Of a DNA stretch of 64,000 nt, positions 41,954 to 46,634 are shown piece after piece (the first letter of the stretch is position 1; the number at the start of each line of letters is the position of its first letter). The position numbers were made by a program, and so were the translations under genes. This DNA is from Lachnospiraceae bacterium P6B14 (GTDB lineage: Bacteria; Bacillota; Clostridia; Lachnospirales; Lachnospiraceae). The notes under the pieces are model-generated. The model did not search any database. It saw nothing but the letters and a program-made list of their open reading frames with translations, and was not told the origin of the DNA. Location: assembly GCA_000687695.1 (NCBI GenBank), contig JHWZ01000002.1, positions 1 to 64,000 on the forward strand, read 5' to 3'.

Positions 41954-42325
41954 TCAGTATATCTTTTTGTATCCGGGGTTCGCCAAAAGCTCTAATTCGT
42001 TGTGATACAGGTAGAGCTGTTGTACACCGTTTTCCAGGTGGAAATAATGGATGATGTACGGAACCAACAGTACGATGAAAAGGGCTCCCAAGACCAGTAA
42101 AGCCAGCTCCTGTATGGCCAGGTAGGCCGGGACTGTTATCACGGTCGCCAGACCGAAGAGAACGGTCACGATCAGGTGGATCAGACGTTCATGCTGGAAA
42201 AACCCAATCTGTATCCTCAGGCGCTCGAGTTCTTTTTGGGCTTCGTCAGGCGATATCCCGCCTTCTGATCCGGAGGTCAGCTCCTCATAGTATTTCAGCG
42301 CGACACGCAGTCTGTGCTTATACAT
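41954..42325 (-). CDS. Small membrane protein, unknown
   Basis: This 123-residue protein has a charged N-terminal half (1-48) with a possible coiled coil, two membrane helices (about 49-70 and 74-96) and a hydrophilic C-terminus. It overlaps the end of the LeuA-AraC gene by 8 bases, so the two are probably made from one message. No family recognised. Confidence 0.65.
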   Translation of the reverse strand: MYKHRLRVALKYYEELTSGSEGGISPDEAQKELERLRIQIGFFQHERLIHLIVTVLFGLATVITVPAYLAIQELALLVLGALFIVLLVPYIIHYFHLENGVQQLYLYHNELELLANPGYKKIY

Positions 42326-44324
42326 GATTTGTCTCCTTTTGGTCGTTTCTGTACTGAACCGGAGTCATGTTGTATTTTTTCTTGAACACACGATTGAAAT
42401 GCTCTACGTTCGGATATCCGACGGACAGAGCGATACTCTCGACGTTCATCGTGCCGTTTTTCAAAAGAGTTCTGGCTTTCTTCAAACGAACCGCTGTAAG
42501 GATCTCCTTGAATGTCTTGCCACTCTTGTCGTGAATGTATTTGCTGATGTACGGCTCTGAAAGGTGCATGTAGGCAGCCATATCCTCGAGAGTTACGGAA
42601 CGGTAATTCTCCTGGATATAGTTCATCATCTGGATGAGCCTGTCATCGCGGAACTCTTCATTGTTTCTGACAGCAGGAAGCTTGTTCACGCAGACTGTCA
42701 GAGCGTGGATCGAAGCGGTGATGATATCCTCATGTATACCGACGCCCCAGAATACCTCACCGTCGCAGGTTATGCTCACATACGCGATGGCCTTTGAGGA
42801 TGAGCCCTGTGTCAGAGCGTGCTCTTCGTAGGTGGTCAGCTGATAGCTGATATCGAAAAACTGTTTGATCGTATTGCTGACAGCATCCAGGCGTCCGTTT
42901 CCGACCGCGTCGACGATCCTGTCCTTGTCACCGCAGGTGATCGTGACGGATGCCATGATGCCGTTTACCTGGCGGAAATGGCACTCGTTGATCTGAAATA
43001 CCGGTGTCGGGTTGATGTAGTTATCAGCAAAAATATCATAGATCCACTGAGGAGACAGCTCCTTATGCTCCTCATCGGATACGCTCTTCATAAGATATCC
43101 GACCTCTTCACGCATCGCCTCAGGCAGTGTGATACCGAAGTTCTGTTTGAGAGTGTAGTTTACACCGCCCTTTCCGGACTGTGAATTGATACGGATGACA
43201 TCTGAGTCGTAGGTTCTTCCCACATCCTTCGGATCGACAGGCAGATACGGAACGCACCATTTGTCTGTCTTTCCATCCTCGCGCCACTGCATTCCCTTTG
43301 CGATGGCATCCTGATGAGATCCAGAAAACGCGGTAAATACCAGGTCTCCGGCATATGGCTGACGAGGCGGTACCGTCATTCTGGTGTAGGACTCATATCT
43401 CTCTCTGATCTCTTTCATATTTGAGAAGTCAAGTCCCGGATCGTATCCGTGTGAGAACATGTTCATGGCGATAGTCACGATATCCACGTTTCCTGTACGC
43501 TCGCCGTTTCCGAAGAGAGTACCCTCGATACGATCTGCTCCGGCGAGTACTCCGAGCTCGGCGGTAGCCACGCCCTCACCGCGGTCATTGTGCGGGTGGA
43601 GTGAGAGAACGACACCGTCACGATATTTCAAATGCTTATGTACATACTCAAGCTGGCACGCGAATACATGTGGCATTGCGTTCTCAACTGTGGTAGGTAT
43701 ATTTATGATAACCTTCCAGTCAGGAGTAGGCTTCCAAACATCGAGAACTGCGTTACATACGTCGACAGCGTACTCAACCTCGGTTCCCGGGAAGCTCTCG
43801 GGACTATACTCAAAGCGGAAATTGCCCTCGGTCTGATCGGCGAGCTCCTTTAAAAGGATGGCACCGTCAACGGCGATTTTCTTAATTTCTTCTTTATCTT
43901 TTTTGAACACCTGCTCACGCTGAGCTACAGAAGTAGAGTTATATAAATGTACTACTGCGCAAGGTGCACCCTTGACAGCCTCAAATGTCTTTCTGATGAT
44001 GTGCTCGCGTGCCTGAGTGAGCACCTGTACGGTGACATCTTCAGGAATTTTGTTCTGATCGATGAGTGCACGCATGAACTCATACTCCGTATCAGAGGCA
44101 GCAGGGAAGCCAACCTCGATCTCCTTGAAGCCGACCTTGACCAACAGATCAAAGTAATCAAGCTTCTCCTGGAGGCTCATCGGCTCGATCAGCGCCTGGT
44201 TTCCGTCACGCAGGTCTACCGAACACCAAACCGGAGGCTCGGTTATCTCAGTTTTGTTAACCCAGTCATATGTCACCTCGGGTGGCATGAAGTAGGGCGG
44301 TTCGTATTTTTCGTATCCTTTCAT
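42318..44324 (-). CDS. leuA: 2-isopropylmalate synthase fused to an AraC-type DNA-binding domain
   Basis: The first 560 residues are a full LeuA: catalytic barrel with metal-site motif CSVDLRDGNQAL near residue 34, HPHNDRGEG, and the C-terminal leucine-binding regulatory domain (about 430-555). It joins acetyl-CoA and 2-oxoisovalerate in leucine synthesis. Residues 562-661 are then an intact AraC/XylS-type DNA-binding domain with both helix-turn-helix units (VTLEDMAAYMHLSEPYISKY and the ALSVGYPNVEHFNRVFKKKY signature). The frame is continuous. Typical LeuA ends near residue 555, so this is a real domain addition, not a misread. It could act as a leucine-sensing regulator of its own pathway. 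Confidence 0.93.
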   Translation of the reverse strand: MKGYEKYEPPYFMPPEVTYDWVNKTEITEPPVWCSVDLRDGNQALIEPMSLQEKLDYFDLLVKVGFKEIEVGFPAASDTEYEFMRALIDQNKIPEDVTVQVLTQAREHIIRKTFEAVKGAPCAVVHLYNSTSVAQREQVFKKDKEEIKKIAVDGAILLKELADQTEGNFRFEYSPESFPGTEVEYAVDVCNAVLDVWKPTPDWKVIINIPTTVENAMPHVFACQLEYVHKHLKYRDGVVLSLHPHNDRGEGVATAELGVLAGADRIEGTLFGNGERTGNVDIVTIAMNMFSHGYDPGLDFSNMKEIRERYESYTRMTVPPRQPYAGDLVFTAFSGSHQDAIAKGMQWREDGKTDKWCVPYLPVDPKDVGRTYDSDVIRINSQSGKGGVNYTLKQNFGITLPEAMREEVGYLMKSVSDEEHKELSPQWIYDIFADNYINPTPVFQINECHFRQVNGIMASVTITCGDKDRIVDAVGNGRLDAVSNTIKQFFDISYQLTTYEEHALTQGSSSKAIAYVSITCDGEVFWGVGIHEDIITASIHALTVCVNKLPAVRNNEEFRDDRLIQMMNYIQENYRSVTLEDMAAYMHLSEPYISKYIHDKSGKTFKEILTAVRLKKARTLLKNGTMNVESIALSVGYPNVEHFNRVFKKKYNMTPVQYRNDQKETNHV

Positions 44325-44400: not shown

Positions 44401-44426
44401 AAAAAACATCAATTTTGATGTTTTTT
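44401..44426. promoter_or_regulatory. Palindrome upstream of leuA-araC: possible operator or attenuator
   Basis: AAAAAACATCAA (44401-44412) and TTGATGTTTTTT (44415-44426) are exact inverted repeats 77 bases upstream of the leuA start, in a 294-base divergent region shared with ftsH. With flanking A/T runs it could be a terminator hairpin in either direction or an operator for the AraC domain. Promoters for leuA nearby are weak (TAAGAT or TACAAT near 44435), so the choice is open. Confidence 0.5.
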
Positions 44427-44550
44427 ATGATTGTATCTTACCACACCTTTTTGAAAAAGGGAATGATAAAATTTAATCAATTTTATTGATATTTTTTAAT
44501 TAGTATGATTCAGACGTGTCGTTTTTTAGCAAAAAATGCATATGTTTGAC

Positions 44551-44618: not shown

Positions 44619-46634
44619 ATGGATAATAAAGATTCAAATAACAATCGCAGAAGCGAGGAAGAAAGAAAGAAGCGCTTTCGGATCAATCTGTTGATCTCTT
44701 TGGCGGCGCTTTTGTTCGCTCTGTTTTTTATCATGTTTTTGAATACGGAGCTGAAAAGGACTACCGAGGAGGAGATCAGCTACACCAAGTTCATCGAGAT
44801 GCTCGAGGACGGGAACGTCGGAAAGGTCACATTCAAATCGAACATGATCTACATCGAGCCGAATGTTCCGTCTGATATGAAGCTTCTTTCCAAAAAGTAT
44901 TTCACGGGTTATGTAAACGATACCGAGCTTGTTCAGAAGATGCTCAACAAATATAAGGTCGAGTTTACGGCCGAGATCAATGATTCTGATTCGGGAATCT
45001 GGGAGTTTCTGCTGACATATCTGCTTCCGATACTCGGTATATGGGCGCTTTTGTGGTTTTTCATGCGATCGGCGACCAAGGGCGGAGGCCTGATGGGCGG
45101 TGTAGGAAAGTCTACTGCCAAGATGTATGTTGAGAAAAAGACCGGAGTTACCTTTGCCGATGTAGCAGGTGAGGAGGAGGCCAAGGAGAGTCTGACGGAG
45201 CTCGTTGATTTTCTGAAAAACCCTGCAAAGTACAAGGAGATCGGTGCCAGACTTCCCAAGGGTGCTCTTTTGGTAGGCCCTCCGGGAACAGGTAAAACGC
45301 TTCTCGCCAAGGCGCTCGCAGGTGAGGCAGGCGTACCGTTCTTTTCACTGAGCGGTTCTGATTTCGTGGAGATGTTCGTCGGAGTCGGCGCGTCGAGAGT
45401 CAGGGATCTGTTTAAGCAGGCGACCTCGATGGCTCCGTGTATCATTTTTATAGATGAGATCGATGCGATCGGAAAGAGCCGTGACACGCAGTATGGCGGC
45501 GGAAACGATGAGCGTGAGCAGACTCTTAATCAGCTTCTGTCGGAGATGGACGGATTTGATTCATCAAAGGGAATCATCATCCTCGGCGCGACAAACCGTC
45601 CGGAGGTGCTTGATAAGGCGCTCCTTCGTCCGGGACGTTTTGACAGAAGGATCATCGTTGAGAAGCCTGATCTGAAGGGAAGAATTGATGTACTGAAGGT
45701 GCACAGCCATGACGTCCTTATGGATGAGACGGTCGACCTCGAGGAGATAGCGCTCGCAACATCGGGTGCAGTAGGTGCTGACCTTGCGAATATGGTCAAC
45801 GAAGCAGCCATCATGGCCGTTAAGGACGGAAGAAAGGTAGTCAGCCAGAAGGATCTTTTCGAGGCGGTCGAGGTAGTACTTGCCGGCAAGGAAAAGAAAG
45901 ACAGGATCCTCGGCAAGGAAGAAAAAAGAATAGTTGCCCACCACGAGATCGGACATGCGCTCGTGATGAGTATGCTGAAAAATACAGAGCCGGTACAAAA
46001 GATAACCATCGTCCCGAGAACGATGGGTGCGCTCGGTTACGTTATGCAGGTGCCTGAGGAAGAGAAATATCTCATGAAGAAAAACGAGCTTCTCGATCAG
46101 ATCACGGGATTGCTTGGCGGACGCGCGGCTGAGGAGGTCGAGTTCGATGATATAACGACAGGTGCGTCGAATGATATCGAGAAGGCAACCTCGATAGCCA
46201 GAGCGATGGTAACACAGTACGGAATGAGTGAGCGCTTCGGAATGATGGGGCTTGAGACCATCACCAGCCGTTATCTGGACGGCCGTCCGGTGACCAACTG
46301 CGGCGAGCAGACAGAGGCTGAGATTGACGAAGAAGTTAAAAATATACTTAAAAAATGCCACGACAAGGCAAAGAAGATAATAGAGGATAATAAGGATGTT
46401 CTCGAAAAACTCGCGGCTCACCTTATTGAAAAAGAGACGATCACAGGTGATGAGTTCGTAGAGATATTCGAGCAGGAGACCGGTATACGCCTAAAGAAAA
46501 AGAATCCTGACGGAACCATAAAGGAAGATGAGGAGAAGGCCGACGAGGATGCTCAGGAAACAGAGTCCGAGCAGACCGAGGAGACAGTTCCGGAAGCAGA
46601 GACCGGTGAAGAGGAAAATGGAGAAGATGTTTGA
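44619..46634 (+). CDS. ftsH: ATP-dependent zinc metalloprotease FtsH
   Basis: FtsH is a membrane AAA+ protease that removes damaged membrane proteins and short-lived regulators. The 671-residue protein has two membrane helices (about 22-42 and 129-149), Walker A GPPGTGKT (220-227), SRH region [19 protein letters not shown], and the zinc site HEIGH (442-446). The C-terminal 60 residues are highly acidic and low in complexity. ATG 44619 follows AAAGGAAC. Its 3-prime end overlaps the start of uvrC, so the pair is likely co-transcribed. Confidence 0.96.

Follow-up and report, generated by a model that had tools for sequence, protein, structure and literature searches.

A 2-isopropylmalate synthase fused to an AraC-type DNA-binding domain in the Lachnospiraceae, with a candidate operator at its own promoter

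The 64,000-nucleotide stretch of contig JHWZ01000002.1 from Lachnospiraceae bacterium P6B14 that was analysed here (the window) carries a leuA-araC fusion gene on its minus strand, a single uninterrupted frame of 668 aa running from an ATG at 44324 to a stop at 42318. An earlier note, made from the letters of the window, had described a complete LeuA with its leucine-binding regulatory domain, followed by a full AraC/XylS double helix-turn-helix (HTH) domain, at 42318-44324; the coordinates were right, though given without a strand, there is no internal stop, and both halves of the description are borne out by the domains listed here.

42318..44324, minus strand: leuA-araC fusion gene, 668 aa (open frame, Pfam, NCBIfam)
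43404..44228, minus strand: LeuA catalytic TIM-barrel domain (HMGL-like), residues 33-307 (Pfam E 1.9e-67)
43146..43346, minus strand: IPMS_D2 linker domain, residues 327-393 (Pfam; poorly modelled by AF2)
42678..43058, minus strand: LeuA_dimer leucine-regulatory domain, residues 423-549 (Pfam E 7e-25)
42642..42677, minus strand: variable linker, residues 550-561 (mean top-residue frequency 0.466 for 550-563)
42342..42641, minus strand: AraC/XylS double HTH domain, residues 562-661 (Pfam, conservation, AF2)
42522..42557, minus strand: putative HTH1 recognition helix, residues 590-601 (AF2 helix, conservation)
42372..42407, minus strand: putative HTH2 recognition helix, residues 640-651 (AF2 helix, conservation)

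All five Pfam domains of the protein exceed their cut-offs, i.e. the three LeuA domains and, in the tail, HTH_18 (residues 582-660, E 8e-21) and HTH_AraC (residues 625-660, E 2e-10), and its top NCBIfam match is PRK03739, 2-isopropylmalate synthase (785.5 bits against a cut-off of 455). The closest solved structures, by sequence and by fold, are those of M. tuberculosis LeuA (1sr9, 3fig), which shares the subfamily and domain order of the LeuA part but stops after the regulatory domain and has no AraC part. Residues R39, D40, H243, H245, N279 and H337, the last just past the HMGL-like domain, are invariant across 38 aligned sequences and are presumed, from the alignment with the M. tuberculosis enzyme, to be metal, substrate and catalytic residues. 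In the LeuA_dimer domain N476, G477 and Y499 are invariant in the same alignment and L479 is nearly so, and these are taken to be leucine-regulatory residues with the roles they have in M. tuberculosis LeuA. Judged by its domains and residues, the LeuA part is a complete enzyme of the Mycobacterium type, with catalytic, linker and leucine-regulatory domains.

The tail resembles AraC-type domains by sequence and has the makings of the AraC/XylS family, a domain of about 100 residues with two HTH motifs: beyond the Pfam matches, an AF2 model has seven helices within residues 562-666, forming a bipartite AraC domain, with a block pLDDT of 80-89 for 561-660. The model was built from 38 sequences (mean pLDDT 79.8) and its pTM is 0.61, so the placement of the domains relative to one another is not to be trusted. 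The genome, which is 98% complete, holds one LeuA, and the five further matches are AraC-like segments only. A 123-aa frame at 41954-42325 on the minus strand overlaps the end of leuA and has no Pfam or NCBIfam match; similar frames lie downstream of leuA in three related loci (L069, L044, L067), and by eye it resembles a small membrane protein and is perhaps translationally coupled to leuA.

Fusion is the common state at the related loci. At 61 of 79 related loci an open frame of more than 600 aa reaches into the AraC part (one of these, L023, ends at 636 where its contig stops), 16 frames end near 550 aa, and two loci, L006 (broken) and L078 (cut by its contig), were left unclassed and were never counted for the operator described below. 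The earlier note had named absence of the AraC part from close relatives and an assembly error joining two genes as grounds for doubt; the first does not apply, and an assembly error is ruled out by the recurrence of the fused frame across many assemblies, including strain and isolate records. The fusion gene of L006 is broken early in a relative that is otherwise 93% identical. L050, one of the 16 short loci, and L170 carry the AraC part in another frame, with the break within the variable linker, which may be a natural split, frameshifting or a sequence error; both retain the operator as well as the AraC part, and L050 lies on the same contig as L163.

Across the class, the fusion was found in 13 of 391 sampled genomes (E <= 1e-45), ten of them in the window's own family and three in two other families (G471 and G607 in f14, G609 in f73). 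Horizontal transfer, a deeper origin and contamination are possible readings of these three; the copy in G471 sits at a contig end. Some fusion genomes (G108, G009, G014, G022, G218, G310, G325 and others) give two LeuA matches, either second copies or pieces.

The AraC part is as well conserved as the regulatory domain beside it. In 73 non-redundant sequences out of 113 fused proteins, the mean top-residue frequency is 0.736 for the AraC domain, 0.745 for LeuA_dimer and 0.466 for the linker, and Y592 and S594 in HTH1 and E641, F643, R645 and F647 in HTH2 are conserved in every sequence. Estimates of dN/dS lie at 0.006-0.029 for the AraC part in the 10 of 16 pairs where they were computable and at 0.011-0.038 for the LeuA part in 15 of the 16, several dS values among these pairs being above 1 and so uncertain. 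On these estimates, the AraC part is under strong purifying selection equal to that on the enzyme. In a LeuA-core tree of 86 rows, thinned from 148, the 54 fused and two split rows all fall in one group of 64 with eight unfused rows nested within it, and a single gain with several losses is therefore favoured, although the branch uniting the fused genes is not strongly supported (83, below the starred level of 95). The fused-or-split label requires seven changes on this tree.

Upstream of leuA, a leader alignment of twelve close relatives contains two conserved blocks amid diverged DNA. The region between 44325 and 44618, which the earlier note had put forward as a candidate target of the fusion protein, does contain an operator-like site, termed O1, together with a predicted promoter and a second site, O2:

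44462..44499, minus strand: operator O1, TTAAAAAATATCAATAAAATTGATTAAATTTTATCATT, at the -35 position (leader alignment, matrix scan)
44435..44445, minus strand: extended -10 element, TGTGGTAAGAT; the -10 hexamer begins 21 bp past O1
44401..44426, minus strand: O2, second operator-like site, AAAAAACATCAAAATTGATGTTTTTT, just past the predicted transcription start

O1 was represented by a 38-bp matrix derived from 13 fused leaders, with the 99.9th percentile of single-base shuffles as the threshold. In a held-out test, from which duplicates of earlier loci and one leader shorter than 200 bp were left out, the matrix matched 42 of 51 new fused leaders. Of the 18 leaders whose genes were classed as unfused from their length it matched only that of L170, which is split. 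When the 146 loci offering 200 bp or more of upstream sequence are pooled (without L056 and L135, and with the 13 training loci counted as fused), O1 lies within 600 bp upstream of leuA in 95/112 fused, 2/2 split and 0/32 unfused genes, a few of the 95 matches adjoining the start codon and resembling O2 more than O1. Six of the 17 fused misses have a strong O1 farther upstream, before an inserted gene or a T-box leader, and another (G007/L138) has one about 0.8 kb upstream. The other ten have no O1 above threshold; several show recognisable weaker copies, and in the leaders of L057 and L141 no copy is visible, even a weak one. Of nine unfused genes examined, eight of them nested in the fused clade, none has O1.

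The site is also largely confined to leuA. A scan of 1.84 million positions at the 79 loci gave 41 O1 matches outside plus-strand leuA leaders, of which 40 come from leuA leaders read on the reverse strand (one of them at L078) and one, at threshold, lies elsewhere. A shorter pattern with up to three mismatches matches 43 of 200 genomes of the family, and in 39 of these, by hand tally, the site is at a fused or split leuA, against at least 47 fused or split genomes listed (G163 being counted as fused though its match ends at residue 583). All 28 pattern rows with two mismatches or fewer are at a fused or split leuA, again by hand tally, and the five other places have three mismatches each, as have the six matches of the control pattern. 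Throughout the window's own genome (2.69 Mb) the sole perfect operator is at leuA, with four places at three mismatches, one of which overlaps the leuA operator on the opposite strand. Phylogenetically independent contrasts between O1 and fusion number only 4 (starred) to 7, and the four starred contrasts, which average 2.1 in the expected direction, 0.0 in the opposite one and 1.9 without difference, are too few for a sign test. The association of O1 with the AraC domain is thus near-complete across these loci, albeit short of formal proof.

O1 looks more like an inverted than a direct repeat (similarity 0.88 inverted, 0.52 direct at 23 bp), whereas classical AraC sites are direct repeats. 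Operator class covaries with HTH residues, but nearly as strongly with columns of the linker and the dimer domain, so that co-evolution of the HTH residues with the operator is only suggestive. In one lineage of fused leaders (L110, L120, L126, L132 and the like) the distal operator half reads CACT, and by eye its arms form a longer palindrome whose sides seem to change together. Extra genes, i.e. a 108-aa frame and frames that by eye are methyltransferase-like and alpha/beta-hydrolase-like, lie between the operator and leuA in five loci (L019, L020, L025, L042, L043) and, by that position, should share operator control.

Promoter geometry was compared in 93 of 100 aligned operator rows, those with enough sequence and a distance of over 80 bp to the start codon. 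The -10 begins 21 bp after O1 in 82/93 and 20 bp after it in 6/93, and therefore O1 occupies the position expected of a -35 box. The extended -10 TG is present in 91/93 leaders; the finder rewards TG, and plain column counts still give TG and TA..AT at 82-91%. O1 is the constant part of this arrangement: O2 scores above 99% of shuffles in 38/93 leaders (30 of these have it starting 71-75 bp past O1) and was not found in 55/93. In the window itself O2 exceeds 99% of controls, but weakly.

A leucine T-box, an RNA element that senses uncharged tRNA, also acts on leuA and is the control in most unfused relatives; in fused genes it is joined or replaced by the protein operator. Its core motif lies upstream of 24/32 unfused and 21/112 fused leuA genes. 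RF00230 reaches the Rfam threshold in 9 of 10 loci scanned (the exception is L016), and in 23 of 25 loci the apparent specifier, at the position it presumably occupies, is CTC or CTG, both leucine codons (L136 and L070 differ); of 44 loci tried, these 25 were the ones in which a pattern could pick it. Within the window no Rfam family attains the gathering score, and the leuA there has no RF00230 leader upstream. Fused leaders carry O1 and a T-box, O1 alone, or O1 and O2. The proposition that a gene has a T-box or the AraC part, never both, is ruled out by 20/93 leaders in which a T-box motif separates O1 from the start codon. O2 is found in none of the 20 leaders with the motif and in 38 of the 73 without it (Fisher 5e-6, uncorrected for phylogeny). 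Among early-branching fused genes, O1 is followed by a T-box in L160, L136, L158, L150 and L157 and stands without one in L147 and L148. The simplest order of events would be a T-box first, then the fusion with O1, then loss of the T-box in many lineages and gain of O2 in some.

The earlier note had supposed that the fusion would be both catalyst and regulator of leucine supply. The conserved AraC domain and the operator that tracks it are strong comparative support for that idea at leuA; the wider part, leucine supply at large, is not borne out in this genome. The leuCD (L103), leuB-ilvD (L104) and ilvN-ilvC (L105) regions were located in the genome (named from their family matches and by eye), and regular expressions found neither a half-site nor a T-box in them, while a looser inverted pattern gave four matches, each within a coding frame. 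A wider regulon in this genome was accordingly set aside as unfound; the operator is seen at leuA alone, and the supported role is therefore autoregulation of leuA.

The compared sequences directly show the fusion and how conserved it is, the sites O1 and O2, the promoter geometry and the tracking of O1 with the AraC domain, and the near restriction of O1 to genes with that domain points to an enzyme in control of its own gene. Autogenous control of leuA through O1 by a fused enzyme-transcription factor is, on this basis, judged likely. Weighing against it are the ten fused genes with no O1 above threshold, the support of 83 for the fused branch, the small number of independent contrasts, the almost equal covariation of other columns and the inverted form of O1. 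In the proposed mechanism 2-isopropylmalate is the product of the LeuA part, whose C-terminal regulatory domain should bind leucine. The AraC domain, the presumed binder of O1, would sit over the -35 position of the extended -10 promoter that drives leuA itself and, in certain lineages, that of the window among them, would also bind O2. Leucine is probably the signal, as the regulatory domain is intact at the four residues named above; leucine binds the corresponding domain of M. tuberculosis LeuA (PMC10464499). The leucine-free dimer would most likely activate leuA from O1, and leucine would both inhibit catalysis and end activation or shift the protein to repression through O2. Given autogenous control through O1, activation is the sign that is rather favoured, because O1 is at the -35 position.

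The main rival to activation is repression, in which the AraC domain at O1 and O2 would mainly shut leuA when leucine or LeuA is abundant and the promoter would fire alone. Extended -10 promoters can function without a -35 element, TG stands at the extended position in 91/93 leaders, and O2 lies just past the predicted start and only where the T-box motif is missing (0/20 against 38/73). However, O2 was not found in 55/93 leaders while O1 is constant, and an AraC-type activator usually has its site fixed at -35 beside an extended -10, so that repression is a possible but unlikely main mode. It is less probable again that a different transcription factor binds O1, with the AraC domain acting elsewhere or through protein contacts. 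Correlation is silent on which protein binds, which could be one that tracks the fusion, and phylogeny-independent contrasts are few; against this, O1 is essentially confined to the neighbourhood of the fusion gene and the nested unfused genes are without it, so it reads as the signature of a local autoregulator.

Two further explanations would dispense with a DNA-binding role for the domain or with the operator itself. A structural or vestigial tail would agree with the nested lineages that dropped the AraC domain and kept LeuA and with the two split cases, and DNA binding by the domain is putative; yet its enzyme-like dN/dS (0.006-0.029 in the 10 computable pairs), the fully conserved residues in both putative recognition helices and the occurrence of the operator essentially only together with the domain leave this highly improbable. 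Nor does O1 look like an RNA element, such as a terminator, belonging to the gene upstream. It is palindromic, and in one lineage its arms run by eye into a T-run, but the 21-bp spacing to the -10 holds in 82/93 leaders, the upstream gene in the window (an FtsH-like frame at 44619) is divergent and O1 is absent at unfused leuA, making this the least credible reading of all. The best reading is autogenous control by the fusion protein, added at first to T-box regulation of leuA and later, in many cases, substituting for it.

Several known systems are comparable in part. NadR and BirA are enzymes with a DNA-binding domain, of the kind called trigger or moonlighting enzymes. Another, PutA, is both a proline dehydrogenase and a direct repressor of the put operon (PMC6978683). 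As in such PutA-type enzymes, a metabolic enzyme would here regulate the transcription of its own pathway; the fusion differs in its enzyme, in its AraC-type domain, in a promoter layout that suggests activation and in having its own feedback-inhibitor domain adjoining the DNA-binding domain. AraC itself consists of a ligand-binding and dimerising domain, a short linker and a C-terminal double HTH, and Ada is an enzyme with an AraC domain. The fusion copies the AraC layout, with LeuA standing where AraC has its arabinose-binding domain, one site at -35 and a second past the start, its companion being, in contrast to those of AraC/XylS regulators, a whole biosynthetic enzyme with a feedback domain. 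A survey of the AraC/XylS family counted 106 companion domains, and a term search of its main text gave no HMGL, isopropylmalate or LeuA (PMC5882156). Among the open-access matches listed, no title or abstract opening describes a LeuA-AraC fusion.

We lean slightly towards a fuller account, in which the enzyme's own feedback-inhibitor domain directly sets DNA binding by the fused AraC domain, and in which this widespread arrangement had a single origin, in the lineage of the window's family, worked at first alongside a leucine T-box, then took its place in many lineages and gained a second operator in some of them. The operator renders the idea of autoregulation directly testable. Should it hold, one protein would unite catalysis, feedback inhibition and gene control at the entry to leucine synthesis, so that a single leucine-binding event could set both the activity and the amount of the enzyme. 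Furthermore, leuA in these gut bacteria would offer a natural and traceable example of a protein-based switch taking over from an RNA-based one, the T-box, at one gene, with the intermediate states still living: T-box alone, T-box with O1, O1 alone, and O1 with O2.
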